NCBI RefSeq assembly: GCF_026016465.1
Contig: NZ_CP100390.1
Coordinates: forward strand, 124,001 to 188,000
Origin: Alkalimarinus alittae
GTDB taxonomy: Bacteria > Pseudomonadota > Gammaproteobacteria > Pseudomonadales > Oleiphilaceae
Direction: 5' to 3'
DNA: 64,000 bases
In this document: positions 40,328 through 59,789 of the stretch, piece by piece
Numbering within the stretch: position 1 is the first letter of the stretch
Layout: each line of letters opens with the position of its first letter
Made by a program: the position numbers and the translations under genes
The notes under the pieces: generated by a model
What the model was told of the DNA's origin: nothing
The model's database searches: none
Seen by the model: only the letters and a program-made list of their open reading frames with translations

Positions 40328-40328
40328 G

Positions 40329-41783: not shown

Positions 41784-41842
41784 AATGACGCTCCTTGTTT
41801 TAAATTGATTTCCTGGTAATGCCGAAATATCTGACGGGGCAT

Positions 41843-41879
41843 TTCTAATCGGCTATTTATATTGGGTAGCCGATTAGAA
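41843..41879 (-). other. Intercistronic hairpin between algL and algA
   Basis: TTCTAATCGGCTA and its exact complement form a 13-bp stem with an 11-base loop. No T-run follows, so it is more likely an mRNA processing or stability element than a terminator. Confidence 0.5.
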
Positions 41880-41915
41880 TATAGACGTTGGATATGACGG
41901 TATAAATACGCTTAA

Positions 41916-43070
41916 TTACTTTACTTCGGTATATGCGGGAGGTGCCGCTAATGCAGATACGCTGGTGTTGAATATTCGAGTTAAGTTACCACCCAATCGT
42001 GTTGTTTTCATTGGACGTAAGGCCTCAAAGTAGGGTGAAAAAAGTTCACTTTCGGGGAAGTATTTCACATAAGGTTCCATCCAAGAGAGTGCATAGCTTG
42101 TTAGCAAGCCGTCTGTAACTTGTGCTTCCCCTGTCTTTTGTTCAAAAGGTGCTGGGTTAGCGAGGCTCTTAACGGTAAGGGTCACAAGCTTGATCAGCGC
42201 TAAACGCTCAGAGGTCTTGAGTTCGTTGTGGTTGGCTTCTGAAAAGGCAGAAAGCATAACCAAAGGCTGAATAGCGTAGTTGTGATAACTTAATGCTCGA
42301 GTGCTCCTTTTTAGCTCATTGGGTAAAAAACCTTCTGAATCTACTTGCGCTAAGCCTTCACTTAACCCATTGTTTGCCCAATCAAATAGGTCCTGACGGT
42401 TAAGTACAACACTCGTTATCATGACAGACCAAGCGGCCCAGTAATCGTGGTTGTTGCGTTTGCTCTCTGGACGGTTACTCCAGTCAATAACAACTTTTTG
42501 AGCAACTTGAGCGAGCCAATCTTCTATGGTCTTGCGTTTTTTAGCTTCAATTTCTGGCGCATTTTCAGGCGCTTTAACTAGAAAGTATGATGACGCAACC
42601 GTGCCTAGCGCCCATTTACGCACGGACTTGCCAGTGTGGTTATGGTCGTCAGATAAAAGTGCACCTGCTTGGGCCCAAGTTTCTAGCCAGCTAATTAGAC
42701 AGTGACGACTGGCAATTCCGGGTTTTCCTTGCAGGTAGTCTTCTGCCAACTGAACGCTGCTTTTTTCTAGGTGAGTAATGTCAGATGTGGCTTCTTGATA
42801 GCGGCTTTCGGCGTCGGCGCTCAATTCATCTCTTGATGAATCACTGCCTTCGTATTTACTCGTAAACTGTAATGGTCCGGTGTAAGGCGTTGGCGGCATT
42901 TCGCAGGTATAGCGACTGTTTTCGTCTTTACCTTTGCCCTCTGTTACAGGCAGATAGTAGCCGTTAGGTGCTTTAAGCATTGTATCGGTATCTAGCTTCG
43001 TAGCTGCATAGCTGCCTAAGGTCAATGCCATCATTGCTGTGGATATCCATAGTAAACGTTTAGTTTTCAT
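41916..43070 (-). CDS. algL: Periplasmic alginate lyase
   Basis: AlgL cleaves misdirected alginate in the periplasm by beta-elimination. This 384-residue protein has a signal peptide (1-22, SYAAT) and the family active-site pairs NNHDYWAAWS (206-215, with Asn207 and His208) and STRALSYHNYA (256-266, Arg258 and Tyr262). AGGAGG lies upstream of the ATG. In Pseudomonas algL sits between algX and algI; here it comes after algX, near the end of the operon. Confidence 0.93.
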   Translation of the reverse strand: MKTKRLLWISTAMMALTLGSYAATKLDTDTMLKAPNGYYLPVTEGKGKDENSRYTCEMPPTPYTGPLQFTSKYEGSDSSRDELSADAESRYQEATSDITHLEKSSVQLAEDYLQGKPGIASRHCLISWLETWAQAGALLSDDHNHTGKSVRKWALGTVASSYFLVKAPENAPEIEAKKRKTIEDWLAQVAQKVVIDWSNRPESKRNNHDYWAAWSVMITSVVLNRQDLFDWANNGLSEGLAQVDSEGFLPNELKRSTRALSYHNYAIQPLVMLSAFSEANHNELKTSERLALIKLVTLTVKSLANPAPFEQKTGEAQVTDGLLTSYALSWMEPYVKYFPESELFSPYFEALRPMKTTRLGGNLTRIFNTSVSALAAPPAYTEVK

Positions 43071-43139
43071 GGTGTTTCCTCCTTACGTTGTCGCAGTACG
43101 GTTTTTTTGTGATTGCTTGGATGCGTTATTGAGCATTTA

Positions 43140-44546
43140 TTAGCGTAGCTCACTATCGCTTCTCTGACACAAGCTAGCCGTTACTTTTAAATCCTGAGGG
43201 TAACTGTCATCGACCTTTATATCGAATGATGTGAAAATAAAGTCTTTCCACTCATCTTCAGAACGTAACTCGAATACAAAACGACCATTACTATTCACTC
43301 GATCACGGTGCTTTAATGTGATGTTTTCTTTACGACTGTTGTGGTACCAGACTTTTGCCTGTAAGCGCTTTATGTCGGGGTTATTGAATTGAATATCTAA
43401 TAAGTAATCACCGCTTAATAGGTTCTTAACCTGACCTCCCCCATTAAATAGCACTTCGTTGTTGCCTGTTTTTAGGCTGATGGTGCTAGATAATACTTTG
43501 GGCTTTGCGGCGCATCCATTGTCGACTAAAGGGATGAGCTGACGGTAATTAAAACTATTCGATAACGAGGTGTATGAAGGCACTTCCCAGATTAGTAATT
43601 TAGGCGGGGCTTCTTGGTAATCTTCGGTTGGAAGGTACTGTAAGAGTGAGCCTATAACGCCACCTCCTGCTTGACCTATATTCAAAACGTCTCTGGATAA
43701 AAATTCTTTTAGGTAACCCACAAAATTATAATTGGTTTGCGCTTTCGTAAAACTAGTACCAGCGGCAACGATCTCGGGCAAACTAGCATCGCTAAATAGG
43801 TCTGATTCACCTTCTTCAATGGTAGAGGCTTCAAATTCATTTACATACTGTTCTGGGAATTGCGTGCCACAGATTAGATAAGCCGCTTTTTGATGAGATC
43901 CGCTAACGTTTAGCAAGCCTACTCGATTATTTTTATATTTCGTTTCTGTAATAGATGAGTAAACACTAAGCTTTGTGATGGTATCAGCAACCAACTGAGC
44001 CGTTAGTTTTGCTCCATAGGGTGTCCAATGGGCATCTCTACGAAAATAAAAATCTGGTGTGCTGCCATCATTAATCAGTGTTTCTAAGTTAGGTACGATA
44101 ATGCCCGTGTCTCTAATTTGTTGTAGTGCTTGGTTGTAACTGTTTGATGCCGCGATAAAATCATACTGAGCATCGACTACTCCGTCTGGATTTATCAAGC
44201 CTCGAGTGGGTTGATATACCATGACTAGCTCAGTCCCCTTCGCAGCCAAAGCAGCACGAAACCGATTCATTTCATTCAAGGTGCGTTGGTTAATTTCAAA
44301 GCTTTCGTCGAGGTCCAGTTTTGTTCGATATAACCAGCCATCAGTCCCTGCCACTAAATGCTGGCTGACTTTCAGAAACTCTGTGTTGTATGACGCAGGG
44401 TCATTGACCTCTGGGCACAAGGAGCAACAGGCTTCTAGTGCATAATGAGGCTCCGCAGCTGAATAGGGCGCATAAAGAGCCATTAGTGCCGAGACCGTCA
44501 GTGCTTTTTTAACAGCAGAAGGACGAAAAATAGACATTGTTTTCAT
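43140..44546 (-). CDS. algX: Alginate O-acetyltransferase AlgX
   Basis: AlgX binds alginate and adds acetyl groups in the periplasm. The 468-residue protein has a signal peptide ending near residue 31 and the SGNH-like catalytic residues Asp171 and His173 in FRRDAHWTPYG and Ser265 in AAGTSFTKAQ; P. aeruginosa AlgX uses Asp174, His176 and Ser269. The C-terminal part is a carbohydrate-binding module (about 340-465). The cysteine-rich start ALEACCSLCPE is typical. It follows algF by 15 bases. Confidence 0.94.
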   Translation of the reverse strand: MKTMSIFRPSAVKKALTVSALMALYAPYSAAEPHYALEACCSLCPEVNDPASYNTEFLKVSQHLVAGTDGWLYRTKLDLDESFEINQRTLNEMNRFRAALAAKGTELVMVYQPTRGLINPDGVVDAQYDFIAASNSYNQALQQIRDTGIIVPNLETLINDGSTPDFYFRRDAHWTPYGAKLTAQLVADTITKLSVYSSITETKYKNNRVGLLNVSGSHQKAAYLICGTQFPEQYVNEFEASTIEEGESDLFSDASLPEIVAAGTSFTKAQTNYNFVGYLKEFLSRDVLNIGQAGGGVIGSLLQYLPTEDYQEAPPKLLIWEVPSYTSLSNSFNYRQLIPLVDNGCAAKPKVLSSTISLKTGNNEVLFNGGGQVKNLLSGDYLLDIQFNNPDIKRLQAKVWYHNSRKENITLKHRDRVNSNGRFVFELRSEDEWKDFIFTSFDIKVDDSYPQDLKVTASLCQRSDSELR

Positions 44547-44561
44547 GGTTATACTTCTCGT

Positions 44562-45245
44562 TTATTCTTGAACCCAAACTAATGACGGATGCGCATTGGG
44601 TTGACTGATGGCAAATAAGTTGAATATTTCACCGCGTTTAAGGGCTATAGGGCTGGCGGAAGCAATTTTCTTTTGCTCGTTAAAGACCGCTAGCGAAATT
44701 TTAACCGCATTGACTTCTCTAAAGCCGCTATTATTGGAGTCAACGCCTTTAATAACGGTACCCTTACCGTTGTCTGTTTTAAGGGTGAGAGGCGCATCTG
44801 TCAGGTTGTAGAATGCGATAAGCGCTTTCTTTCTCTGGCTAAATGCTTGGCCTTCGATGGTGGAAATTGCGCCTGATTTATTAAGGTACGCAGTGTAATA
44901 GTGACCTGCTTCTAACACTAAAGGTTGCTGTGATTGTTTAAGGTTGAGCGTGTATTCACCAGCAGGTAAAAACTGATACTCGCTAGCGCTATATACGCCT
45001 TCTGCCGTTAGTGTTTTAGAACCAATACTGGCTGTGAGCATAGCGGCTTGGCTGCTATTAAAGATGCGAATAAACGCAGAGCCTGGAGGCGCTTTGGGGC
45101 CATATAATGCTTCATCATCGGCATTAACATTTAACGTTGTAAGTAGCAGTGCAGCCATTGTAGAGAGCGACAAAAGTAAAAAGCGTGTGGTGCTACCTTT
45201 GTGGTTGCGACCTGTGCGAGATAAGTAAAGACTCAATCTGTTCAT
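44562..45245 (-). CDS. algF: Alginate O-acetylation protein AlgF
   Basis: AlgF is a periplasmic helper that passes acetyl groups between AlgJ and AlgX. The 227-residue protein has an N-terminal signal anchor (about 22-43) and a beta-sandwich domain beginning ALYGPKAPPGSAFIRIFNSS, the AlgF hallmark. Its ATG overlaps the stop of algJ (TAATG), so translation is coupled. Confidence 0.92.
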   Translation of the reverse strand: MNRLSLYLSRTGRNHKGSTTRFLLLSLSTMAALLLTTLNVNADDEALYGPKAPPGSAFIRIFNSSQAAMLTASIGSKTLTAEGVYSASEYQFLPAGEYTLNLKQSQQPLVLEAGHYYTAYLNKSGAISTIEGQAFSQRKKALIAFYNLTDAPLTLKTDNGKGTVIKGVDSNNSGFREVNAVKISLAVFNEQKKIASASPIALKRGEIFNLFAISQPNAHPSLVWVQE

Positions 45246-46390
45246 TATGCAGATGGCTCCTGGTTTGTGGTTGGTTTTTTGTCGTCGATGGCTTTGGTTA
45301 ATGCCATTTCGGTATGAGTTTTGTATTTAATCGGCAAGAAACGTTCAGGAAATTCCCAAATTAAAATACGAGGAGGTGCGTTGGCGAAGTCCTCCGATGA
45401 TAGATACGTTATCATCGGCTCAATGGGGCCTTTTCCTTCTTCTGCATAATTGAGAATTTCTTGGCCAAGCTGTTGCTCGAGAGCCCCTGGGAAGTTCCAT
45501 AACTTATTCGCGCTATAGCTCGTGCCGACTAAGGTAATATCAAAGCTTGGTTCATCAGCAAACAATAGTGCGTCAGCATCGTCTAGGCTTGTAGCACTGT
45601 TAATTTGGGTGACTTGTGGCTCAATCGTTTCGGGTTGCGGTCCCATCCAGCTAAAGTAATCTCGGAAGGGAATAAAGCTCATTAAATCCCCTTCGTGCTG
45701 TTGGCTTGTTAATACCGAGGTTGAAAATTGAGTACTATCACCCAGGATTTCTGCATCAAGTGATGCGATCGTCTCTTTTAGTTGAGTGGCGGCTATTTTT
45801 GCACCGGCGGGTGTCCAGTGGGTATCGGTTCTTAAATACATTTGCTGCGCATCTTTGGTTTGCAGCATGGGCTCTTTAAAGCCTGTCCAATGAATGCCTT
45901 CGGCTTGAAGCCATTGCGTGAAAGAAAGGTAGCGTTGTGAAGCACTGTTACTCGGCCGATGGTCACCTAAATATTCTGGATAGATACTTGCTTTAGCAGG
46001 TACCACCGCGACGACTAGCTGTATATTTTGCTGCTTGAGCTGCGTAGCAATAGCTTTGATCGTGTCGAGGTTCTGAGCGGTATGGTTTTGGTCTGCTGAA
46101 TAGGCTTTAAATTCTTCCGAACTGAAAAGCCAACCCTCTTTGCCTATTTCAACGCCGCTACGGCCTTCGTTAAAGAGTGCATACTCAATAGCGGCCCATA
46201 CATTAACGCCGATGTTTTTGATCGGGAGTTGGTCGTCATAATGGTCTTCAAAAGCGGCGGCTTGATCACCGGTAATCCAGCTTTTATCTTGTATTGTATA
46301 ATTGGCATAACCCCCAATAGAGAGCCCCCCGATCAAGATTAAACTTGCGCCAAAGGCCAAACCAGGGAAATTATAAGATATCTTTTTCAT
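45245..46390 (-). CDS. algJ: Alginate O-acetylation protein AlgJ
   Basis: AlgJ is an SGNH-type acetylesterase/transferase anchored in the periplasm. The 381-residue protein has an N-terminal anchor (about 10-28) and the catalytic Asp189 and His191 in LRTDTHWTPAG and Ser291 in LVGTSYSANK, in the same order as Asp190, His192 and Ser288 of P. aeruginosa AlgJ. AAGGAG lies ahead of the ATG. It is 17 bases after algI. Confidence 0.94.
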   Translation of the reverse strand: MKKISYNFPGLAFGASLILIGGLSIGGYANYTIQDKSWITGDQAAAFEDHYDDQLPIKNIGVNVWAAIEYALFNEGRSGVEIGKEGWLFSSEEFKAYSADQNHTAQNLDTIKAIATQLKQQNIQLVVAVVPAKASIYPEYLGDHRPSNSASQRYLSFTQWLQAEGIHWTGFKEPMLQTKDAQQMYLRTDTHWTPAGAKIAATQLKETIASLDAEILGDSTQFSTSVLTSQQHEGDLMSFIPFRDYFSWMGPQPETIEPQVTQINSATSLDDADALLFADEPSFDITLVGTSYSANKLWNFPGALEQQLGQEILNYAEEGKGPIEPMITYLSSEDFANAPPRILIWEFPERFLPIKYKTHTEMALTKAIDDKKPTTNQEPSA

Positions 46391-46407
46391 TATGCGTCTC
46401 CTTGAGC

Positions 46408-47820
46408 CTAAAACTGAAAATACAAAAAGGGTGAAAAGCTTTGGGCAGACAGTTTGAGTAAGCTCAGTGCGAATAACGGTATCACCGCAATTTGGCTTGC
46501 TTTATAAATGGTTTGTCCGCCTTGGGCTAGCCAGCGCATAATGGGTTCTTTAAACCCAGTAATAAATACCACGAGATAAGACAGCACCAATATAAACAGC
46601 TGTAGCTTAGTGATGCCGTCCATGAGTGGCTCACTTAACGAGAGTGACGTGAAGCTAAACATAGCCTTATAAAAGTAAATAGCGGTGGTAACGTCTGGGG
46701 CTCTGAACATCACCCAGCCAATGACCACCAGTAAAAAAGTGAGCCCCCAAGCGAAGATATTAAAATGCTGTTTTGAGACGGTGACGCCGAGTGCACGTTC
46801 TATTGAGAGAATCACGCCATGCCATGCGCCCCATAGTGCGAATGTCCAGTTGGCTCCATGCCAAAGGCCACCCAAAAACATGGTTAAAAACAAGTTACGG
46901 TAGGTCTTGAAGGTGCCGTGGCGGTTTCCGCCTAGTGAAATGTAGAGGTAGTCTCTTAACCAAGAAGACAAACTGATGTGCCAGCGTCTCCAGAACTCTG
47001 TAATGCTTTGGCTAATATAAGGGTGGTTGAAGTTCTCCATAAACCGAAACCCCATCATTAACCCTAAGCCGATAGCCATGGCGCTGTAACCCGCAAAGTC
47101 AAAAAATAACTGAGAGGTATAGGCTAAAGCCCCGAGCCATGCGTCGGCTGTCGTTGGGTTCGCCGTTGAGTAACAGGCATCAACAATAGGTGCGATTGAA
47201 TCAGCTATAAAGACTTTACTGATAAACCCCTGCATAAAGCGGGTCGCGCCTTCTGAAAACAAGGCCATGCTGTGTTTACGTTCAATAAATTGATCGGCTA
47301 AATCTTTATAACGCAAAACAGGACCCGCAATAAGTTGTGGAAATAGCGCTATAAAGGCCGCAAAGTCGATAATATGCTTTGTAGGTGGCGTATCTTTACG
47401 ATAGACGTCGATAATGTAACTAATAGCCTGAAAGGTATAAAAAGAAATACCGATTGGCAGAATAACCTGAGTAAGAACAAAGGGTTCGAACCCTAGGTTG
47501 CTAAATATGGCATTAAAGCTATCGACACCAAAGTTGGCATACTTGAAATACCCTAGCGTGCTGAGATTACCGATAACGCCGAGCGTCAACCAGCGCTTGG
47601 CTGATGGCGTATCAAGTGTTTTTGAGATCATGAGTCCGATCAGGTAATTCCAGAGTGTCACCGCGACAAATAACAGTAAGAAATCAACTCTCCACCACGC
47701 ATAAAATGCATAGCTACCTAATAGTATTATTAAGTTCTTACCCCTTGCTGGGGTTAAGTAATAAACCCCGAGAAACAGCGGTAAAAACAAAAATAAAAAT
47801 ACATTTGATGAAAAAACCAT
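46408..47820 (-). CDS. algI: Membrane-bound O-acyltransferase AlgI
   Basis: AlgI moves acetyl groups across the inner membrane to AlgJ. The 470-residue MBOAT protein has about eleven membrane helices and the catalytic histidine His321 in FLGGLWHGANW, against His322 in P. aeruginosa. HPYISQSITEFWRRWHISLS (266-285) is the second family block. AAGGAAG precedes the ATG. It follows algG by 24 bases. Confidence 0.95.
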   Translation of the reverse strand: MVFSSNVFLFLFLPLFLGVYYLTPARGKNLIILLGSYAFYAWWRVDFLLLFVAVTLWNYLIGLMISKTLDTPSAKRWLTLGVIGNLSTLGYFKYANFGVDSFNAIFSNLGFEPFVLTQVILPIGISFYTFQAISYIIDVYRKDTPPTKHIIDFAAFIALFPQLIAGPVLRYKDLADQFIERKHSMALFSEGATRFMQGFISKVFIADSIAPIVDACYSTANPTTADAWLGALAYTSQLFFDFAGYSAMAIGLGLMMGFRFMENFNHPYISQSITEFWRRWHISLSSWLRDYLYISLGGNRHGTFKTYRNLFLTMFLGGLWHGANWTFALWGAWHGVILSIERALGVTVSKQHFNIFAWGLTFLLVVIGWVMFRAPDVTTAIYFYKAMFSFTSLSLSEPLMDGITKLQLFILVLSYLVVFITGFKEPIMRWLAQGGQTIYKASQIAVIPLFALSLLKLSAQSFSPFLYFQF

Positions 47821-47844
47821 CTCTATTCTTCCTTGAGGTGATAG

Positions 47845-49509
47845 TTAGCTGCCAGAATGATTGACGTGTGGATACTCAATGGGCTCAATAATGACGGCAG
47901 ATTTTTTGCGGTAAATAATGTCGAGTATTTTGTGTTGGTAAGCCGCGAGAGTCCCTTTAAGTGACAGGTTTTTAGATGCACTACTGCTGATAAAACTGGG
48001 ATTGTAGAGTCGAGCGATAACCTTAGGCCCTATAAAAATAGGGCCACTATGGTTCTCAGAAAGACTATCCTGAGTGACCCAGATAGTGGTTGCTGTTTGG
48101 TAGGCATCCATCGACATATCCCTGTCTGTAGCTGAGAGATCTTGTACCTCAGCGAAAATTCCGTAACCACCACTTTTTACAATGGCATTGTGGCTAATGC
48201 GGGTATTATTGCTGTTTCTGACACGAATACCTTGCCGGGTATTGTCGGCGATAACGTTGTTGATAATATGGTTATTGTCGCTTTCATAAAGCGTAATGCC
48301 GTCGCCGCCATTGCTGTAAACGGTGTTGTTAGCGACAACATTTCGCTGGCTGTCTCTGTCTAATACGATACCTGACAGGTGATTGTCATGGGTCCGGTTG
48401 TTAACAATCCAGCTATCATTGACCTCTCGTGAGATGATGATGCCGTGCTTTTCTCGGGTGCCATATACATGATTATTAGCAATCAATAATCGAGATGATC
48501 TGTCGTGAGGGTCAATCCCGTATAGAATATTGTCTCGATAGGTATTGCCGACTAATGCGACATCTTCTGCTTCATAGCAATAAAACCCATAGTAAGTATC
48601 ATAAAACTCCGAGTCGATGATCCAACCTTTTGGTGCCGCTCGGTGCATGTTGTCGTGTTCTTTATATTGGGTAAATGTGATGCCGTAAGACTTACTTTGG
48701 AAGTAACCAAAACTTTCTATAGCTGAGTCTGCGATGTAGGTTTCGCTGCCACCCCATGAAACAAAAAAGGGTCGAAATTCCGTGTCTTCTTTATAGTAAG
48801 CATTAGTATTATTTTTCTCGTTCCATCCGACTATTCGGCTGTTAATGGCGAAGAATAGGCCGTCATTAACTAAAAAAGCGCCTCGATCTTGTGACAGTAA
48901 AAGTGTTACTTGGGGCTTTTGAGATTCACTGTTCTGGCTATCGGTATTCGAATCACTTCCATCTATTAATAATGTGGCGTTATTACCGACTAAAATAGGT
49001 AATCGCGCTATATAAGCTCCGTTCGGAAGCTTTTCGAAATACTGGCTATCTACCGCGTTAGCAATGTCTTCAAGCGTCGCTAAGCCACTTTCAACTTCTA
49101 TAATTTTAGGTGATGACAATTGTCGCTTTGCCCATTCGAGTAAGCGCTTACCCCGAACAAAATCTTTAAGTGGCCCGCTTCGTACTAATCTTTGAATGGT
49201 TATCACCGGTTTTTTGTTAGCGGGTATTTTCGCCTTAATCGCCTCTAGGTTATAGGCTGAACTATCTGGAATACTGGGTGAGTCCCATTGAAATTGGGAC
49301 ACGGGTATTTCGTTGACGGCATGGGTGGCCGTTGGTTGTTTGCTCAATGCCAAGGCGTCTGCATGCGCTGCAGACGAAAACCCTAATACGTGATAAAAAA
49401 GAATGAGCATTATCCAAGGGTATCCCTTTTTAAGGGGGCTTCGTCGTTGTTTTACTGCATTATCTATTAGGTTATCCACCCGTAATCTCCGTTCAATCCT
49501 TGCCATCAT
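47845..49509 (-). CDS. algG: Mannuronan C5-epimerase AlgG
   Basis: AlgG turns D-mannuronate into L-guluronate within the polymer in the periplasm. The 554-residue protein has an anchor or signal near residues 33-50 (ending AAHADA) and a right-handed beta-helix domain. The catalytic motif DPHD is at 333-336. Repeated IVNNRTHDNH- and VVANNTVYSN-type coils at about 355-440 are the helix turns. The first thirty residues are basic and could be trimmed by a later start. It lies 41 bases after the algKE gene. Confidence 0.95.
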   Translation of the reverse strand: MMARIERRLRVDNLIDNAVKQRRSPLKKGYPWIMLILFYHVLGFSSAAHADALALSKQPTATHAVNEIPVSQFQWDSPSIPDSSAYNLEAIKAKIPANKKPVITIQRLVRSGPLKDFVRGKRLLEWAKRQLSSPKIIEVESGLATLEDIANAVDSQYFEKLPNGAYIARLPILVGNNATLLIDGSDSNTDSQNSESQKPQVTLLLSQDRGAFLVNDGLFFAINSRIVGWNEKNNTNAYYKEDTEFRPFFVSWGGSETYIADSAIESFGYFQSKSYGITFTQYKEHDNMHRAAPKGWIIDSEFYDTYYGFYCYEAEDVALVGNTYRDNILYGIDPHDRSSRLLIANNHVYGTREKHGIIISREVNDSWIVNNRTHDNHLSGIVLDRDSQRNVVANNTVYSNGGDGITLYESDNNHIINNVIADNTRQGIRVRNSNNTRISHNAIVKSGGYGIFAEVQDLSATDRDMSMDAYQTATTIWVTQDSLSENHSGPIFIGPKVIARLYNPSFISSSASKNLSLKGTLAAYQHKILDIIYRKKSAVIIEPIEYPHVNHSGS

Positions 49510-49550
49510 GAATGCTCAATTGGGGGCCACCTCATAGGCGACCCTCTTTA

Positions 49551-52334
49551 CTAAAACTGAAATGATACATCCATCGTAATACGGTATTTTAAGCTGTCAG
49601 CGTCATTGCCATAGGCGTCACCGGGCTTAAAAGTCGACGCACGCAGGCGCGCATAAGCGTCGCGCTCAAACCGCCAATTTACTAGTGGTAGAATTTGGCG
49701 AAAGTAATAAGAGGTGACGATGTCTACACCATGCCCTAGGTCTTTACTGCCATTAACGAGGGGTGCACTTACACCACTCGCAACAACACCTTGATCGGCG
49801 TTGTCTCGCTGAAAGTACTGGTAGACAACGCTTAAATCGAATTGGCTCGGATCAGCTAGCGTGCCGTATAGCGTTGCTACTTGCAGGTTAGTCAGCTCAG
49901 CACGGTAGGCTTCGTTAAAGCGGTGAAAGCTCGCTCGAGTACCGGTAAATCGAGAGCGGTTGCTTTGTAGACCTGTCTGAACAAAGCTATTGGGCTTATC
50001 GCTTCCATTCCCGCCAGAGCCCATCGCCATGGCTGCACCTAGGTGAACACGAGGGGCTACCGGTAACTTCCATCTAAGGCCTAGGTCAATCGCAACGTTA
50101 TCGGCGGTTTCGGACTGATAACCTGCAATGGTTGATGGTTGGCTGCCAGGTGATAGTGTTGCATTATCACCATCAAAATGTAGCCAGGTTAATTCAGCGT
50201 AGTAATGTATGTTCTCTTCGCTACGATAGTTGAAGTAGTCACTTTTTGTGTTTAAGCCGAACCAGTAAAAGTCGCCCCTTGCTAGATTATTTAAATCATC
50301 TTGCGAGGCTGTTTGACCTACTGCTTCAGGGTCAGCGTCTACGTTCTTATAAAGCACTCGCGAGCCGATATGGTGACCCGGTTGCCACTGCCACGACAGG
50401 GTTGTGAACAGGTTAAGCTGATCTTTATCGCTATCGCTCAGTTCATTCTCATCGGTTCGATATTGATAAAACTGTTGAGCAACGCCTGCAAAAGCAAAAA
50501 AGGTTGTGGTATCAAATATCCAGCGGATAGATTCAATATTTTTATCCCACCAGATACCGTCATCTTCTCGTATTCTTTGTAAACCTAGTCTTAAGGTTTC
50601 ACCTGGGTAAGAGGTAATACCTTTATAATCAAACCAGAACTCTCTGGCACCCAAGAACCCGTCTGAGCTTCCTCCGCCTTGGTCTGAATCAATCTCAGTG
50701 ACGTCTGTGGCAGCAAATGCCTGTAATTCAGTAAAGAAACGCCAGTCTTCATTGAGCTCGGCTTTAATCCAAGGCTTTAGGTTGATTTGAAATTCGTTAG
50801 TATCTCCGTTCGGCTTTAGGCCTAAATAACGGTCATCATCCCAACGGTATGAGAACTGAGTGCTTACGCCCCATTCATAAGATGGGTAGTCGATAGGCGA
50901 GGCCTCAAAGTCGGTTGTAGCGACTGAAGACACCGTAGGCGTAGAAAGCGCTATTGCGTCTTGGTGATCGCCTGCTCGGAACTGTTTTTCTTGCGCTAAT
51001 AAGCCTTCAGCTTCTGATTGTTGCTTGAGGCTTAGAGTCTGCTTGATATTTTCATGCAGCAACGAGGCTTTAGTTGAACCTGCTTCGGCAGCAAGTCCTG
51101 AAAAAAGGTAGCTATAAGTAGGGTTAGGCGCTACGCCTGCACCACCGTTATACATCTCTGCCAAAGCATAATCAGCGCTTTTTGAGCCTGCTCGCGCGGC
51201 TAATAGAAGGTGGCGTTGCCCTTTTTGGATATCACTTTTGCCTAGATAGCCTCTTAGGTATATTTGGCCGAGCCAATAATCGGCTGCTGCGAACTGTCCA
51301 CTCGCTTTTAGTAGATTTTTCTCGGCTAGCACTGGGTCTAGTGGTACAAGTTTACCGTCATAGTAGAGCTTCCCCGTTAGCATGTTTGCTTCAGGCAAAT
51401 GCAATTGTTTTGCTTGTGCTAAAAGGTGAAGGACTTCTTCTGAATTGCTGAAGTAGGGGTTGTCCAGTCGTAAGCGAATTCGGGCAAGGAGTGCTCTTGG
51501 GTATTCGTCTTGTACGAGTTGGTAGGTGTCGTCTGCTAGTGTAGGTCTAATCTCTGACTGCTTAGTTTTAACGAGCACATTTGCCATACGATAAAGAATC
51601 GAGGGCTCTAAAAGCTTCAGCTGATATTGCTGTTTAGCTTTATTGAAAAGAATGCTGATTGATTCACTATCATTGGATACTTGATATATTTCAGCTAATT
51701 CAGGATAACAGCCGACTACTTGACTGAGTACCTCTTCACAAAGCAAGGCCATTTCAGATAAATTCGCCTGTTCATAGCCTTGCCGCTTATACAGTAGTAA
51801 TAATGCTAGGTTAGCGTCAGGCAAACCTCTCAGTTTAGCTTCGTTAATAATTCCTAAAGTATCTTCATCTGGCCACAGTTGTGGATGCGCCATATGCAGC
51901 TTAACCATTAGAGGGAGTACTTCATCATTGCCCTGCTGGTATAGCTTACGGAATATTTCGTCAGACTCTTTGAGCTCTGCAACCGTGGCGTTCTGCTTTC
52001 TTGCTAGCAGTTTTGCGAGCCGGACTTCTGCATACCCTCTGGTCTTAGCATTAGTGCCATCTACTGCCGTTTTTCGATAGCTCGCTTCTGCTAAACGCTC
52101 AGCGTTTGCGTGATCTTGTTGCAGGTAGGTATCACCCAGATAAATAGCTGCATCAAAATAGCCGCTATCCGCTAGTGCTTTGTAGTTCTCGATGGCTAGC
52201 GCATAATCGCCGTTTATCTTTGATTGTTTGGCTAAGCGCATGTCGGGTAACGTGCTGCAACCTTCCATTGTCAGTACGCCTGCTAAGGCTAACGAAAGAG
52301 CCTTAACAGGAGACGCATTCATCCGTTGATTCAA
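49551..52334 (-). CDS. algK-algE: AlgK-AlgE fusion: TPR lipoprotein joined to the alginate outer-membrane porin
   Basis: This 927-residue protein combines two separate Pseudomonas proteins. Residues 1-460 are AlgK-like: a lipoprotein-type signal with Cys26 in LTMEGCSTLP (the -3 to -1 residues MEG are not a classic lipobox), RLAKQSKINGDYALAIENYK, and Sel1/TPR repeats ending in AEMYNGGAG. Residues about 460-485 are a low-complexity linker. From about 486 (YEWGVSTQFSYRWDDDRYLG) the sequence is AlgE, an 18-strand-type barrel with terminal phenylalanine. The frame is unbroken. It starts two bases after alg44, at TTG 52334 or ATG 52322. PgaA and BcsC show the same TPR-plus-barrel plan. Confidence 0.93.
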   Translation of the reverse strand: MNQRMNASPVKALSLALAGVLTMEGCSTLPDMRLAKQSKINGDYALAIENYKALADSGYFDAAIYLGDTYLQQDHANAERLAEASYRKTAVDGTNAKTRGYAEVRLAKLLARKQNATVAELKESDEIFRKLYQQGNDEVLPLMVKLHMAHPQLWPDEDTLGIINEAKLRGLPDANLALLLLYKRQGYEQANLSEMALLCEEVLSQVVGCYPELAEIYQVSNDSESISILFNKAKQQYQLKLLEPSILYRMANVLVKTKQSEIRPTLADDTYQLVQDEYPRALLARIRLRLDNPYFSNSEEVLHLLAQAKQLHLPEANMLTGKLYYDGKLVPLDPVLAEKNLLKASGQFAAADYWLGQIYLRGYLGKSDIQKGQRHLLLAARAGSKSADYALAEMYNGGAGVAPNPTYSYLFSGLAAEAGSTKASLLHENIKQTLSLKQQSEAEGLLAQEKQFRAGDHQDAIALSTPTVSSVATTDFEASPIDYPSYEWGVSTQFSYRWDDDRYLGLKPNGDTNEFQINLKPWIKAELNEDWRFFTELQAFAATDVTEIDSDQGGGSSDGFLGAREFWFDYKGITSYPGETLRLGLQRIREDDGIWWDKNIESIRWIFDTTTFFAFAGVAQQFYQYRTDENELSDSDKDQLNLFTTLSWQWQPGHHIGSRVLYKNVDADPEAVGQTASQDDLNNLARGDFYWFGLNTKSDYFNYRSEENIHYYAELTWLHFDGDNATLSPGSQPSTIAGYQSETADNVAIDLGLRWKLPVAPRVHLGAAMAMGSGGNGSDKPNSFVQTGLQSNRSRFTGTRASFHRFNEAYRAELTNLQVATLYGTLADPSQFDLSVVYQYFQRDNADQGVVASGVSAPLVNGSKDLGHGVDIVTSYYFRQILPLVNWRFERDAYARLRASTFKPGDAYGNDADSLKYRITMDVSFQF

Positions 52335-52336
52335 GA

Positions 52337-53503
52337 CTAAAGCTCCGTTGCTGAGTGTGCAGCAGTTGCTGTAGAGATCGTGTTACTGGTGATCATGTCG
52401 TTGATGGTTACCGCAACAGGTCGGCCGTTAAGTCCTGCGGGTATGTTATCTTCAAGCTTGATGGTCGCGATTAGGCTTTGACCAACTTCAGCCATTGCAA
52501 CGTCTTGTATTGTGCCTTTTGCGGTACCTGTAGAGCCTGGTATTTCGACATCTACCACTCTACCAGGTATTACATATTGACTATCTTTTAGATTAAATCG
52601 GGCTTCTACAAATGGCTCAGCGTCTACAGGTACCAACTGGAACGCTGTTTTTCCTTTGGCTAAAAACTGACCATCGACAATAAACTGCTTTTGCAGAACA
52701 CAGTCGCATGGGCTTGATATAGTCCCGGTCAGTGATTGATTAAATAGTGCTCCAATTTTTTCAGCCGATAAATTATCTTCGTTTAAATGTCCTTTTAACG
52801 CATCCAGCATGGCGGTTTCGTAACTGGCAATAGGGACCCCAAACTTAACTTGGCCATCGTCTGGAATTAAGCTATGCAGCTTTCCGTCTCGTGGCATTTC
52901 GACATTAAAAGACTCTATTTGAATAACGGCTGCTTCTGCATGGGTTAAGAAGTAATTGCTATAGAGTTTGTTTGCGATGAAACCAAGAGCACCGAGCCCC
53001 ACTAGGAAAACCAACAGGCTCATTGAAAGTGCTTTAGCGCGGGCAAAGCCACTCATGGCAGGTAGCGCAGCTTTATTATTACGATCTTTAGTAAAGTTTT
53101 GACGAGCGAGGGTATTAATAACATCTCCTGCGGTGACCAGTTCGCCACTAAGGAAGGATGTGATCATCAGGCGAAGTGCGGATACTTCTTGTTGGCCCAT
53201 GCCTTGAAACTCACAACCCAAACGGCCTTGTTCATCGCTAGCCTTTACTAAGAAGGATATCTTTATTTGAAATTCAATAGCATTGATGCTGAACTTGAGG
53301 CTTCCTTTGTGAAGACTGCCTAAAGAGAAGGTCGGCTCAGACGTTTCTAAGCTGAAGCCGCCCGCGGAAATATCCTGCACAGCTAATCGAATGATCTTTC
53401 CATTATCCAATTTGACGGCTAACTTGGCTGGCAGCTTTATTCGAGCATGCTGGCGTTGTGCCTCGGCTTCATGAACAAGGTTAGTGTTGGCTGCTATACC
53501 CAT
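52337..53503 (-). CDS. alg44: Alginate polymerase regulator Alg44 (PilZ, c-di-GMP-binding)
   Basis: Alg44 binds c-di-GMP and switches on the Alg8 polymerase. The 388-residue protein has an N-terminal PilZ domain whose c-di-GMP ligands fall exactly at the Pseudomonas positions: Arg17 and Arg21 in QRQHARIKLP and Asp44 and Ser46 in QDISAGGF. A membrane helix follows at about 158-180, then a periplasmic HlyD-like part with a lipoyl-type hairpin. AGGGA lies upstream of the ATG. It follows alg8 by 62 bases. Confidence 0.95.
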   Translation of the reverse strand: MGIAANTNLVHEAEAQRQHARIKLPAKLAVKLDNGKIIRLAVQDISAGGFSLETSEPTFSLGSLHKGSLKFSINAIEFQIKISFLVKASDEQGRLGCEFQGMGQQEVSALRLMITSFLSGELVTAGDVINTLARQNFTKDRNNKAALPAMSGFARAKALSMSLLVFLVGLGALGFIANKLYSNYFLTHAEAAVIQIESFNVEMPRDGKLHSLIPDDGQVKFGVPIASYETAMLDALKGHLNEDNLSAEKIGALFNQSLTGTISSPCDCVLQKQFIVDGQFLAKGKTAFQLVPVDAEPFVEARFNLKDSQYVIPGRVVDVEIPGSTGTAKGTIQDVAMAEVGQSLIATIKLEDNIPAGLNGRPVAVTINDMITSNTISTATAAHSATEL

Positions 53504-53565
53504 GGTAAATCCCTATAATGATAATTAGTGTTGTCTTTTTTTGAGAGCCTCAAACCGAGATTCCC

Positions 53566-55050
53566 TTAAATAACTGCCAGCATGATTGCGCAAAACAAGC
53601 TTGCTGCTGAAAATGTCATGGCTCTAGATGACCAGCGGTTAAACCATTGCTGGAATGATGCTAGATCCCTTGTTAGCTTGGTCGGTTGGCGAGTCCATGA
53701 CTGCCGATCTAAGCGAAAATATACGTAGATTTTGACTAATGAACCGAATAGCTGGTTGTAATACAGTATGATTGGATAGGCCGGCCCCACCTGGTGGCCC
53801 GAGGCCAATAGCATTACGGTCATGATGAGCCGCGTAATACCAATCCAAAGAATGTATGCCAACAGAAATACAATCGAGTATTTGATACTGGCGATAACGG
53901 CACTGACGGGGGCTAATAAGCTACTCCACATCGAAATACGCTGATCAAACAGCACGTAATAGGTAAACCACCCTAAGCGCTTAGGCCCAAGCAGTTTGGT
54001 TGCTCGGCTGTTTTGACGTAATGAGTTACCATACCAGCGAAACATCAACTGACGGCTTGCACGGACGAATTTTGGATCAGGCGGATGCTCAACAGTATTA
54101 ATGGCTGCGTCAGGCACGTAAAATGTGTCGTAGCCGAGACGCATGAGACTGAACCAACTCGATTTATCATCACCGGTTAAAAACTTGAACTGGCCCAAAC
54201 GCCAATGGTTAAGTGAGTCATTTTCTACATCGGCGATAAAAACAGGGTCCGTTACCACTTGGGCGCGGAATACTGACATTCTTCCCGTTAGGGTTAAAAC
54301 GCGCTTTGATAGCGCCATTGAACTCATATTGATGTGGCGCTGTGCAAAGCGTAGCTTATGCCATTCGCTCATTAAGTAGCTGCCACGGACTTCACAGAAT
54401 TCGTTGGTGGTTAGCCCCCCAAGGTTGGGAAACAAATGGAAATAGGGGACGGTTTTTCTAACAACGCCTGGCTCAAGAACCGTATCGCCATCGATGACGG
54501 CAACAACCGCGTGCTTGTCGGGCATGTCGCGTGAAATAGCGCGAAACCCTTGCGCGAGACCATCTCGTTTACCGGTACCCGGTATCCTGACAAAGTTCAT
54601 ACGAACTCGCTCAGGTGGGCTCATATCTTGCCAAAGCGCTTTAAAGATCAGCTCATCTGACTTTTCTACAATAGACGCGACAATCGTTGTCGGCAGTTCG
54701 CACTCAATCGCTTCTCTTATAATTGACTGATAAACCATCGCTGTGGTTTTTGCATCAATACGGAAGCTTGTGACCATGAGATAAACGTGTGACGGGTTTG
54801 CTGCCTCCCCCATCTTTCGTACCTTACGGCGATAGTGCGGAAATACGATATGTAGAAATATCATTCCTCTGATAAAGTGAATAACGCCCATTGAATAACG
54901 CCATATACCTATGGCACCAATCACAAATAAAAATTCTTTGGAACTGGGTATGAACGTTTCTTCTGGCAGTAACAGAGCGATACCTGATAGCACTACCAAA
55001 TAAAATATCCAGCCGGATGCATTGTCCAGTAGATGTTTAAAAGTACTCAT
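53566..55050 (-). CDS. alg8: Mannuronan synthase Alg8
   Basis: Alg8 is the GT2 polymerase that links GDP-mannuronate units. The 494-residue protein has membrane helices at the N-terminus (about 12-62) and at the C-terminus (about 375 onward), and a cytoplasmic catalytic core with Asp187 and Asp189 in [11 protein letters not shown], the acceptor motif LTGDDKSSW (about 265-273) and the terminal [15 protein letters not shown]. It follows algD after 173 bases that include a hairpin. No strong ribosome site is visible at the ATG 55050. Confidence 0.94.
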
Positions 55051-55067
55051 AATAGATTACTAGCTGA

Positions 55068-55118
55068 TTAAGTTTTGCCGACTACAAAATAACGTTATTA
55101 GTCATCGGCAAAACCTTA
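55068..55118 (-). other. Intercistronic hairpin between algD and alg8
   Basis: GTTTTGCCGA (55072-55081) and TCGGCAAAAC (55105-55114) form a 10-bp stem, extended by TTAA/TTAA outside. It stands just before alg8 and has no T-run, so it may uncouple alg8 expression from algD by processing or stability. Confidence 0.5.
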
Positions 55119-55223
55119 ATTAATACACAGGTGTTGAGTGTGCATCCAAGCCTATTTTTTAACAGGCCTCGATAGCGTTAGGCTAAAGGGAATAAAACTC
55201 AACGATTTAGTCGGTATGCTGGA

Positions 55224-56534
55224 CTACCAGCATATGCCTTCTAATTCTCCATTGGAGGCGTGCTCCATGAAACCCACTAGATCTATCACTTTCTTGCCTT
55301 GTGGCAGGTTGGTGAGAATAGTTTCAAATAACTCATCTTTGTTACCAAGAATGATAACGTCAGCAGAGTCAATTACATCATGCAAGTCTGCTTTAAGTAA
55401 TGACGAAACATGAGGGATTTTGGCATTGATGTAGTCGGCATTAGCGCCGTGAACCCGTGCATATTCTACGTTTCGGTCATAAATGCTAAGATCAAAACCT
55501 TTACCGATTAACTGCTCCGCTAGTTCAACTAGCGGGCTTTCTCGCAGGTCATCTGTACCCGCTTTAAAGCTAAGACCTAGCATAGCGATTTTACGACCGC
55601 CTGATGCTGTGACCATTCTGACCGCATTTTGAACTTGGCTGGCGTTGCTGTTCATGATTGAGCTAAGTAGCGGATGAGCCACATCAAGCTGTGATGCTCT
55701 ATAGGTTAACGCGCGAACATCCTTAGGTAAGCAAGATCCACCAAAGGCAAATCCTGGCTTCATGTAGTATTTAGAGATGTTGAGTTCTTTATCTTGGCAC
55801 ACGACATCCATGACATCACGACCATCAACACCGACAGCTTTAGCGATGTTACCTATTTCGTTGGCAAAGCTGACTTTAGCCGCGTGCCAAACATTACAGG
55901 TATATTTAATCATTTCTGCTAGTTCAATGGTTCTACGGATAATCGGCGCATCAAGTTCTTTGTAAAGTTCTTCAAGCATATCACCTGACTGCTTATCAAA
56001 CTCACCAATTACGGTCATTGGAGGGAAGTCATAGTCTTGGATGGCGGTACTTTCACGAAGAAATTCAGGGTTCATGGCTAAACCAAAATCTTTACCTGCT
56101 TTCTTGCCAGAATACTCTTCAAGTATAGGCTGAATAACGTTTTTAACGGTGCCCGGTAAAACGGTACTTCTGACGACAACCAAGTGGTATTCGTCTTTAT
56201 CTTTGATGGCACGCCCTAAATCACGGCATACGGCCTCGATATAGTCTAAGTCTAGGTCTCCATTGCGCTTGCTAGGAGTGCCCACGCAAATCATAGACAT
56301 TTCAGTGTTAGATACGGCTTGGTAGAAGTCTGTGGTGCCGCGAATTAACCCTTTAGTAAGGCCTGTGCTTATGAGTTCCTCTAAGCCTGGCTCTACGATA
56401 GGGGACTTTCCCTGATTGATTAAATCAATTTTAACTTGAGCAATATCGACACCCAGAACAGAGTGTCCTCGAGCGGCTAAACAAGCTGTACAAACCGCAC
56501 CTACATATCCTAGACCTAATACACTAACACGCAT
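55224..56534 (-). CDS. algD: GDP-mannose 6-dehydrogenase
   Basis: AlgD makes GDP-mannuronate from GDP-mannose with two NAD+. The 436-residue protein has the NAD-binding start GLGYVGAVCTACLAARGHSV (7-26), the catalytic Cys268 in GFAFGGSCLPKDVRALTYRA (261-280), identical in number to P. aeruginosa AlgD, and the UDP/GDP-binding C-terminal domain. AAAGGAGAT lies eight bases before the ATG. It is the first gene of the operon and the committed step, so the region above it should hold the main control. Confidence 0.96.
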   Translation of the reverse strand: MRVSVLGLGYVGAVCTACLAARGHSVLGVDIAQVKIDLINQGKSPIVEPGLEELISTGLTKGLIRGTTDFYQAVSNTEMSMICVGTPSKRNGDLDLDYIEAVCRDLGRAIKDKDEYHLVVVRSTVLPGTVKNVIQPILEEYSGKKAGKDFGLAMNPEFLRESTAIQDYDFPPMTVIGEFDKQSGDMLEELYKELDAPIIRRTIELAEMIKYTCNVWHAAKVSFANEIGNIAKAVGVDGRDVMDVVCQDKELNISKYYMKPGFAFGGSCLPKDVRALTYRASQLDVAHPLLSSIMNSNASQVQNAVRMVTASGGRKIAMLGLSFKAGTDDLRESPLVELAEQLIGKGFDLSIYDRNVEYARVHGANADYINAKIPHVSSLLKADLHDVIDSADVIILGNKDELFETILTNLPQGKKVIDLVGFMEHASNGELEGICW

Positions 56535-57329
56535 TTTTATCTCCTTTAATACGCTATTACCATCATTGTTATGCTAGTTAGGCAAAAGACTATTTGGAGT
56601 CATCTGTCCTAACGCATGGAACGCCAAGCAGAAATAATCTTTCTGTCTGGTTAATCCAAATCCTTTTTTCAATGCGGGTTTTATTTTTATTGGATCGCTA
56701 TATAGGCAATTTGATTGAACGAATTGCTTTAATTCTTTTGATTGTCTAATTCTGAGCATCGTGGAGGCGAAATAAATGACAGCTACACTCCATGTGCATC
56801 TTAAACCCTTCGAAAGCTGTCGCTTTTCGAATGAGTTAAATCCTTTAATGATATTATTTTTATTAGTTGACTAAATACGCTTTTAGCAGAGGCAAACTAT
56901 ATGCATCTTTTTTGAATTCTCGAACATGTAATTAATAATACCGTTTACATCACATATTGTTTTGAATGTCAGCATCCTGCCTTTTAATGACTACAGTTTA
57001 ATGACAGGTGACACCATAGGTCAAAATATTTTTAATATTAATTTTGTTTGCCTTATAGTTTGATCGTTATATGGATTTAAAACGGTTAATGGAGATAGGT
57101 AAATATGATTCTGACGCCAGAGTAACTTCCTGGCATTCACTCTACGTAAGGCTTGAACTATCATTTTTGTGAAAACACTTTATTTAACGTGGGCTTATAA
57201 TGTACCTATCATTACTAATTGATTGAATTATCTATATTAATTATGTAATCATTGTCGCGCTTTCAATCTGCTGGAGTGTTGATTGACTGTTATTTTTTAC
57301 GTTAATTCTATTTTGCCATGGAGGCTTCA
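56535..57329. promoter_or_regulatory. Long divergent control region of algD and the PD40/FN3 gene
   Basis: About 795 AT-rich bases lie between the algD start and the divergent gene. I searched for the Pseudomonas AlgU-type promoter (GAACTT...TCtgA) and the AlgR site CCGTTCGTC on both strands and saw neither as a good match. Long leaders above algD are also usual in Pseudomonas. A possible 32-residue frame lies at 56776 (listed). Other short frames look like chance. Confidence 0.5.
56776..56874 (+). CDS. Possible small peptide gene in the algD control region
   Basis: ATG at 56776 follows GGAGG by about eight bases and the frame runs 32 codons. The peptide is MTATLHVHLKPFESCRFSNE and then a hydrophobic end with LMILFLLVD. 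It is short and has no known match in my memory, so chance is likely, but the ribosome site is good. It would need a separate promoter. Confidence 0.18.
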   Translation: MTATLHVHLKPFESCRFSNELNPLMILFLLVD

Positions 57330-59789
57330 TTGAGAATTCTGTTTTTAATATTTCTTGGTGCCACGTTATTCTGCTCAATTTTCTCAGTGCAAGCGGCAAA
57401 AGTTTTCATAGATAATGTTGCGGGGGATGCAAGTCAGGAGCACCGAGTTCCCGCTAGTATTTCGGCTGACGGCCAATATATCGTCTATGCGTCAAACTCG
57501 GCTAATTCAATCGATGCCGGCACGCAAAAGGTATCAGATGTTTTTTTAAAGAATATCCGCAGTGGAAATGTAACGTTACTTTCATCTGGCCTTGCGGGTG
57601 CTAAAAGTAATGGAGCAAGCGTTAATCCCGCTATTTCAGCTGACGGCCATTATGTTGCTTTTGCTTCAGTTGCGGGTAATTTGGTATTAGGCGATCAGAA
57701 TAACGCTGTTGATATTTTCCTGTATCAGAGAGCCTCAGGTGAACTCGAAAGATTAGTAGAATTTGCTGATTTCGCTAAAGCCAATTTTGATCATAAACTG
57801 CAGTGGCCAGGTAACATTGATCTTTCGGGAGATGGGCGAATTGTTGTTTTTGATACTGCCCAAGGTCAAAGTGCAGACCTTGGGCTAGGCTCGAACTCAG
57901 ATATGCGGTCACAAATTTTTATCATTGATAGAGATCGCCAGCATATTGAGGTCTTACATATAGAGGGGCATTCTCAAAGCGATTTTAGGCACCCTGCAAT
58001 CTCTGAAGATGGCCGGTACGTGGCATTTGAATTAACGGCGTTCAACAGTGGGATAGGTGAAAGTAGTACACTGACTCGCGTGCTTTTATTTGACCGAGAG
58101 CTAAATAAAGCTATACCGGTAAGCCTTAATACAAAAGGAATTGAAGGTAATGGATCATCGTTTCGACCTAAGATTTCAAAAGCGGGTCGTTATGTATCGT
58201 TCTATTCTGATTCAAGTAATTTAGCGGCATCAGATATGTTAAACCCCAGTAACCCTGATGTTGTAAAGGGTATTTATATACGAGATCTAACGTCAGCTAC
58301 AACCCAGCTGTTGACCTCTGCAAATCGAGATTGGCCTAATGCCGAGGTTAGTCCAGTGTTTGATATGAGCCCCGATGGGCGTTTTATTGCGTTTTCATCA
58401 AAGGCCAGTAATTTAACTGATGATGGCCAACTAATGTGTGAAAAAAGAGGGCTGAGTAGCGGTTGTTTTTGGCAAGGGACCAGTCAAATTTTTCGTTATG
58501 ATCGATTGCTTGATCATATGCAGCTGATATCAACCGATGAGGCGGGATTTCCTCTTGATAAAAGCTCCATAGCCCCATCAATTTCCGCGGATGGGCGTCG
58601 TTTAACATTTACCTCTGTTTTTGAGCCTAATAGTATTTCGAGGCGCCTTTATCTGGCGGAACCGACTTATTTATCAGCTTTAACGTTGCTTTCACCTAGC
58701 TATAATGTATTTGAACCATACCCTACTTATTCGTGGGATGCGTCATCTAGTGCAGTTGCCTACCGAGTGTTAAGTGATGATGGCGCTATCACCCGCTGGC
58801 TTTCAGCTGAAGATTTAGGCTGCGCTACAAGCAGTCGATGTGCTGTTACACCACTAACGGAACTAGATTATGGACTAACCCCCCTTTATGTTCAGGCTGT
58901 GACTGCTCGAGGAGAGTTATCGCCATTAGCTGCCCCTCTATATGTTTATAGACGGCCTGAAACCCCAGTAGCTCAGGCGTTGAGTATTCCTGAAGGGAGT
59001 TTAGCGACCTTAAAGTGGAATAAGGTAGCAGATGCGGTTAGCTATCGCATACTGGTGCTCGATAAGATGACCAGAGAGGTGATTGTTAATGAAGTGGTGG
59101 GCGATGTGGCGGCTCACACGTTACCGTTTAAACTCGCCTCTAGTACGGAGTATTCCTATGCCGTTAGGGTGCAATCGCCAACGGGGGTGTACAGTGATTG
59201 GGCGAGCATTAGCTATCGCCCCGAAGTAGGTATTCCTATGCCGTCTTTACCGTTAGGTAGCACTGATAAGCTGACCCCTACATTTACCTGGAGCCAAGTT
59301 GACACGGCAGCTCAGTACAGGATTATTATTCAGGACATAGATACAGGTGAGATGACTAACAACGTGTTAGGCGGGGAGAGTCGTTATCGACATAACGCTT
59401 TATTTGAGCTCGGTCATCGTTATCGCTGGAAGGTTAGGGCTCAAATGCCTGAAGGGGGTTACAGTCAATGGCAGTATTTTGAAGTAGGTGATAACACAAT
59501 ATTTAGGGGGGAGCACAACGTTACTTTAAGGTGGGCGGCACCCGATAAAAGGCTAGATGGTTCAGCGTTGAATGACTTTGAAATTAGTCACTATGTTATC
59601 GAGTATCAGCGAGGGCAAACAGGAGAAGGGCATCGTATTGAGGTTGGCCCTCAGCGACGGGCGCTAGCTTTAAATAGTCTTACTGAGGGCTATTATCAGT
59701 TTGTCATTAAAGCAGTAGATCAGCAGGGATTGGCTAGCGATTCTTCAAATAGGGTTTCTGTTAATGTCCCCCTGAGCGCTGGCCAATAG
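57330..59789 (+). CDS. Secreted protein with PD40/TolB-like propeller and fibronectin-type domains
   Basis: This protein of about 819 residues starts best at TTG 57330: GGAGG lies five bases ahead of it, while the ATG at 57318 has no site and itself overlaps GGAGG. A signal peptide (to about residue 22, SVQAA) leads to six or more PD40 blades of the type PAISADGHYVAFAS up to about 450. From about 480 come three fibronectin-like beta-sandwich domains with YRVLSDDG, YRILVLDK and YRIIIQDI strands, ending in an FN3 domain (YVIEYQRG). Function unknown. It is divergent from algD, and could act on or hold the matrix; that is inference. Confidence 0.8.
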   Translation: MRILFLIFLGATLFCSIFSVQAAKVFIDNVAGDASQEHRVPASISADGQYIVYASNSANSIDAGTQKVSDVFLKNIRSGNVTLLSSGLAGAKSNGASVNPAISADGHYVAFASVAGNLVLGDQNNAVDIFLYQRASGELERLVEFADFAKANFDHKLQWPGNIDLSGDGRIVVFDTAQGQSADLGLGSNSDMRSQIFIIDRDRQHIEVLHIEGHSQSDFRHPAISEDGRYVAFELTAFNSGIGESSTLTRVLLFDRELNKAIPVSLNTKGIEGNGSSFRPKISKAGRYVSFYSDSSNLAASDMLNPSNPDVVKGIYIRDLTSATTQLLTSANRDWPNAEVSPVFDMSPDGRFIAFSSKASNLTDDGQLMCEKRGLSSGCFWQGTSQIFRYDRLLDHMQLISTDEAGFPLDKSSIAPSISADGRRLTFTSVFEPNSISRRLYLAEPTYLSALTLLSPSYNVFEPYPTYSWDASSSAVAYRVLSDDGAITRWLSAEDLGCATSSRCAVTPLTELDYGLTPLYVQAVTARGELSPLAAPLYVYRRPETPVAQALSIPEGSLATLKWNKVADAVSYRILVLDKMTREVIVNEVVGDVAAHTLPFKLASSTEYSYAVRVQSPTGVYSDWASISYRPEVGIPMPSLPLGSTDKLTPTFTWSQVDTAAQYRIIIQDIDTGEMTNNVLGGESRYRHNALFELGHRYRWKVRAQMPEGGYSQWQYFEVGDNTIFRGEHNVTLRWAAPDKRLDGSALNDFEISHYVIEYQRGQTGEGHRIEVGPQRRALALNSLTEGYYQFVIKAVDQQGLASDSSNRVSVNVPLSAGQ

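Follow-up and report, generated by a model that had tools for sequence, protein, structure and literature searches.

The stretch of Alkalimarinus alittae DNA analyzed here, 64,000 nt in length (the window), carries a real, selected, and rare fusion of the alginate genes algK and algE, designated algKE. The products of these two genes are outer-membrane proteins that serve the export of alginate and are usually separate chains. The gene occupies positions 49551 to 52334, as originally predicted, on the minus strand, which had not been specified, and consists of 927 codons beginning with a TTG at 52334, within 943 codons from stop to stop. By eye, a GGAG lies 8 nt upstream of this TTG, and an ATG four codons further on has no visible GGAG-like site. 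The 927-aa product comprises a signal peptide and lipobox ending in Met-Glu-Gly-Cys26, with Glu at position -2 (52257 to 52334), an AlgK-like Sel1/TPR half (approximately residues 26 to 463; 50946 to 52259), a linker of about 25 residues defined as the stretch between the two homologies (approximately residues 464 to 487; 50874 to 50945), and an AlgE-like beta-barrel half (approximately residues 488 to 927; 49554 to 50873), all on the minus strand. The AlgK model NF038194 matched residues 14 to 463 (E 7.6e-98, model positions 4 to 447/448), and Pfam Alginate_exp (PF13372) matched residues 489 to 919 with 168.1 bits, above its cut-off of 25.2. Among solved structures, the best relative of residues 26 to 460 by PDB sequence search was AlgK of the AlgK-AlgX complex (7ula_B, E 2e-65), and that of residues 477 to 927 was AlgE (E 3.3e-98). 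The single open frame claimed across 50860 to 50960 was recovered, with the linker inside it and no stop there or in the second genome described below; the prediction of a natural AlgK-AlgE fusion is upheld by the domain matches to both halves, the second genome, and the survey of relatives.

The fused gene lies within a 12-gene alginate cluster (38960 to 56534) on one strand, in the order algD-8-44-KE-G-I-J-F-X-L-A-C, which agrees with the complete operon originally proposed; context contributed to the naming of algD, alg8, algI, and algC. All on the minus strand, these are an algD-like nucleotide sugar dehydrogenase (55224 to 56534), an alg8-like family 2 glycosyltransferase (53566 to 55050), alg44 with PilZ and HlyD_3 domains (52337 to 53503), algG, a mannuronan epimerase matching at 548 bits against a model cut-off of 700 (47845 to 49509), the MBOAT acyltransferase algI (46408 to 47820), algJ with an ALGX/SGNH domain only (45245 to 46390), algF by domain match (44562 to 45245), algX with an ALGX domain and a C-terminal carbohydrate-binding module (43140 to 44546), the alginate lyase algL by domain and family match (41916 to 43070), algA with nucleotidyltransferase and mannose-6-phosphate isomerase domains (40329 to 41783), and a gene that we take from its context to be an algC-like phosphomannomutase (38960 to 40327). 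The TTG of algKE sits 2 nt past the end of alg44, and algKE ends 41 nt ahead of algG. The order D-8-44-K-E-G-I-J-F-X-L was kept in nine of ten other regions compared (that of the second genome aside, and with genes lacking a match unlisted); in locus L166 the sole algG match was weak and positioned after algL. Because algK and algE are adjacent in relatives, the fusion joins two neighboring genes. No match to an AlgU-type promoter consensus was found in the window, and a sigma-70 scan upstream of algD returned eight sites against 4.8 expected, at most weakly above chance. Elsewhere in the window, and judged by eye, an 823-aa protein whose N-terminus resembles a signal peptide is encoded divergently from the alginate operon (57318 to 59789, plus strand), and a large sulfatase-like protein is encoded at 28674 to 31118, also on the plus strand. 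Among the relatives, one genome (G154, locus L165) had two consecutive algL-like matches after algX, and a genome of the family (G025) had two alginate clusters with algK and algE split in both (L161, C3:311167-313992, and L162, C3:2279356-2282125), the first of which had a weak algL match and no algA match in the stretch taken.

A second copy of the fusion was found in an uncultured Oleiphilaceae MAG of the same genus (G004), with a frame of equal length (927 residues), 91% identity, and no stop. The source genome, a single contig of 4.25 Mb, has one algKE copy, and across the five genomes of the genus (G000 to G004) algKE was present in two, with no match in the other three; the alginate export gene is thus patchy within the genus, occurring in two of five species. 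Between the two species, dS was 0.356, dN 0.043, and dN/dS 0.121, with values of 0.133 for the AlgK part and 0.099 for the AlgE part, indicating purifying selection in both halves; the linker (0.24) and the signal peptide (0.30, the highest of the regions measured) were each estimated on few sites. That a sequencing or assembly error had fused two genes found no supporting point and is a negligible prospect, since frame, length, and absence of a stop are repeated in a separately assembled genome at this synonymous distance. An equal-length open frame at 91% identity makes a base-calling error very unlikely, and together with the dN/dS of 0.12 it means that neither sequencing error nor decay accounts for algKE. 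As far as sequence can settle the matter, the stop and start in the linker that would have restored two genes are ruled out.

Of 163 genomes of the family searched, 37 gave a match at E 0.001, in several cases weak and incomplete. Both halves were matched strongly (1e-44 or better) in 27 genomes, with split genes in 25 and the fused gene in two. Wider samples gave matches in 19 of 390 genomes in the order sample at 1e-20 (the source genome and three family members included), two of 369 in the class sample (source included), and 10 of 299 in the phylum sample at 1e-15 (source included), as well as 1 of 22, 1 of 37, and 1 of 2 at 1e-15 in the families of G469, G169, and G210. A sample of family f20, inferred to be Pseudomonadaceae because it includes named Pseudomonas records, gave matches in 224 of 398 genomes; no fused gene appeared among the matches listed for these 224, in which a fusion entered as two separate matches could be overlooked, and the 15 Pseudomonadaceae loci with frames of at least 786 aa that were taken for closer inspection were all split. 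A scan of named genomes covered the best 80 of 430 relatives. Among the matches listed, none outside the genus crossed both halves without a stop, and five crossed them with one stop (G169, G210, G981, G1002, and G1042). When 157 loci were classified by their frames, 155 had both domains, one had K only, and one had E only. The algK and algE domains were split in 152 of these 155 (135 distinct pairs) and fused in three, namely the window and the MAG twice (L002 and L078, the latter from the named-genome scan, with the identical frame and the same record). The fusion is therefore unusual for alginate, as had been supposed before any survey of split and fused operons.

Several candidates for further fusions, with frames of approximately 900 to 1,000 aa (G025, G026, G030, G169, G210, G522, G981, G1002, G1042, and others), proved to be separate genes, in which either a stop codon separates K from E in one frame or the barrel frame is open past algK in another. 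A 966-aa frame in G1513 was also rejected, as it contained a Pfam Alginate_exp barrel only, without AlgK, and its upstream part resembled, by eye, an open frame in G+C-rich DNA. K and E share a frame in 14 of the 152 split loci (11 distinct), and in 13 of these 14 no further frame break follows the algK stop before the frame of algE is reached, with an AlgE signal peptide evident by eye after the stop; in these loci (L011, L017, L018, L044, L045, L059 to L061, L069, and L079 to L082) the algK stop is the sole break between K and E. In quick trees of 45 hand-chosen loci from the 155, the two fused sequences formed a lineage of their own with a long stem (1.06 changes per column in AlgE and 1.18 in AlgK) that belonged neither to the Pseudomonas clade nor to the main clade formed by the rest of the family, a placement that is unsure given the long branches.

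The linker bears on how the barrel would leave the cytoplasm. AlgE carries a signal peptide of its own in the split operons inspected, and a scan of codons and hydrophobicity over residues 441 to 505 of algKE found no start-plus-signal peptide for the AlgE half: GTG468 is the only in-frame ATG, GTG, TTG, or CTG codon in this range, and the most hydrophobic 10-mer of the linker averages 1.15, compared with 1.54 to 2.81 for the signal regions of 88 split AlgEs (a set limited to barrel matches of 1e-40 or better, with each distinct head taken once). The barrel must consequently leave behind the signal peptide of AlgK, and the lack of a separate signal peptide on the AlgE half is consistent with fusion. 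That single GTG is also what favors the additional production of AlgE alone from an internal start, which is highly improbable, as no ribosome-binding site was evident by eye in the 20 nt before it and the product would have no signal peptide. Cleavage of the linker after export, which would yield separate AlgK and AlgE again, is suggested by a small-x-Ala motif that ends at residue 472 in both species, which puts it 31 residues ahead of the conserved L504 column and within the range of 19 to 33 residues seen for AxA-type sites in 81 of the 88 split AlgEs. That distance is nevertheless near the edge of the range (median 23; a second site rule gave 23 to 44), and the stretch before the motif is less hydrophobic than every one of the 88 split signal regions, too weakly so for signal peptidase I to be expected to recognize the linker; we consider such cleavage unlikely. 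The linker is possibly a relic of an AlgE signal peptide. Only 5 of 300 shuffles scored as well as the linker against redundant split AlgE heads, and 181 of 300 did so against AlgK tails; against 31 non-redundant AlgE heads, 70 of 1,000 shuffles and 29 of 803 other algKE 24-mers scored as well, so these comparisons are suggestive only.

The lipobox at Cys26 had been described as weak, and the comparison with other AlgKs bears this out. From 135 distinct AlgK frames (those worse than 1e-30 left out), 129 could be scored and six could not; position -2 was Ala in 108, Ser in 10, Thr in six, Glu in two, and Gln, Val, and Gly in one each, and both sequences with Glu were the fused forms. A PROSITE-type lipobox pattern fitted 124 of the 129; the exceptions were both fused forms, L007, and two frames clipped at the edge of the retrieved stretch. 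Loss of lipidation, with the barrel having taken over anchoring and the lipobox decaying as in BcsC, PgaA, and PelB, which are not known to be lipoproteins, is favored by the confinement of Glu at -2 to the fused forms and by dN/dS being highest in the signal peptide. Glu was also absent from this position in the seven other lipoprotein-like N-termini found in the window and in 400 kb of genome sequence, which are weak controls because only six and eight such N-termini (algKE included) were counted. However, the lipobox is least strict at position -2, both fused species retain Cys26, Gly at -1, and Met at -3, a good signal peptidase I site was not seen nearby by eye, and two related sequences amount to one event, so that we regard lost lipidation as the less probable outcome, if a serious one, and Cys26 as probably still lipidated. 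Lipoprotein autotransporters such as NalP and SphB1 would provide a precedent for lipid at the N-terminus of a protein whose C-terminal part is an outer-membrane barrel, although their barrel and function are unlike those of algKE. The Glu at -2 would fit a lipid anchor that is less needed when the chain also carries a barrel, again as a single evolutionary event. A tentative and rather doubtful extension is that the lineage lies between two designs, namely a lipid-anchored AlgK with a free AlgE, as usual for alginate, and a single chain anchored by its barrel, as in BcsC, PgaA, and PelB. In this view the barrel anchors the protein, the lipobox is decaying, the linker is the relic of the AlgE signal peptide, and both Lol and BAM routes may be needed; the position of the putative relic near the edge of the split-AlgE range lowered our estimate of its likelihood.

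The single frame shared by two species, the purifying selection acting on each half, the operon slot, and the absence of a separate AlgE signal peptide together make it very likely that algKE is a working single-chain alginate exporter. Several observations were counted against this reading, including the presence of algKE in only two species and the NF038194 score of the AlgK half, 328 bits, under the curated 700-bit cut-off. Of the ten published selectivity-ring positions of AlgE (PMC4118822), seven are identical to P. aeruginosa PA7 and Arg74 is replaced by Lys, which was counted in favor of the reading; the changes of Lys47 to Gln and Arg362 to Ser were counted against it. The Arg485 printed in that paper corresponds to Asp in PA7. 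Eight AlgX-contact residues are given for P. putida AlgK in PMC9734138, among them the salt-bridge Arg404; four are identical in algKE (Gly365, Gln370, Arg381, and Gly400), a count in favor, and four differ, including Arg404, which is Ala402 in algKE, also a count against the exporter reading. By eye, P-x-Y-x-L-E-x-C in the AlgX encoded by this operon stands in place of P30-x-F32-x-A34-E35-x-C37 in P. putida AlgX. Loss of the P-gate loop T8 through fusion was considered and rejected, as the loop is three residues shorter than in PA7, yet approximately eight shorter in some split relatives; this loop (approximately residues 878 to 892 of the fusion) is full in PA7 and about eight residues shorter in L004, L017, and L043. 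As a single-chain exporter, algKE would be made uncut, exported entirely behind the signal peptide of AlgK, and folded with AlgK docked end-on under AlgE; the AlgK half would dock AlgX and funnel alginate, and the chain would continue through the linker into the AlgE barrel for export. A short deletion where algK meets algE in the usual operon is the probable origin of the fusion.

By sequence, algKE most likely belongs with the AlgK and AlgE of Pseudomonas (PDB 3e4b and 7ula; 3rbh and 4xnk), sharing near full-length homology, the same operon slot, and the same partner genes, and by analogy it would work like BcsC, PgaA, and PelB. The Pseudomonas proteins differ in being encoded by two genes with two signal peptides and an ordinary lipobox, whereas algKE is a single gene with a single signal peptide and with Glu at -2. 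BcsC, PgaA, and PelB likewise join a helical-repeat domain to an export barrel in one chain, but serve other polymers and, as noted, are not known to be lipoproteins. The originally noted BcsC/PgaA plan of repeat domain and barrel in one chain therefore holds by domain matches as an analogy and not as sequence kinship, and the 20 PDB sequences that matched at E of 1 or below included no BcsC, PgaA, or PelB entry. According to PMC9734138, AlgK co-elutes with AlgE, an AlphaFold AlgEK model resembles BcsC, and the AlgE-AlgK complex had no experimental structure at that time; in the simulations reported in PMC4118822, AlgK-AlgE adopted end-on poses in two of five runs and side-on poses in three. 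A survey of 64 alginate operons included a category for locus fusions, and the available portion of it names no AlgK-AlgE fusion (PMC7112194); none was named in the titles and abstract openings of the literature searched either, where an earlier mention elsewhere is possible.

algKE would be a new form of alginate exporter. As a naturally tethered pair, in which the C-terminus of AlgK is joined to the N-terminus of the barrel, it could help to show how the two parts fit together, and the tethered 1:1 complex may lend itself better to purification and imaging. Whether the barrel makes the lipid anchor of AlgK dispensable can also be tested with it.
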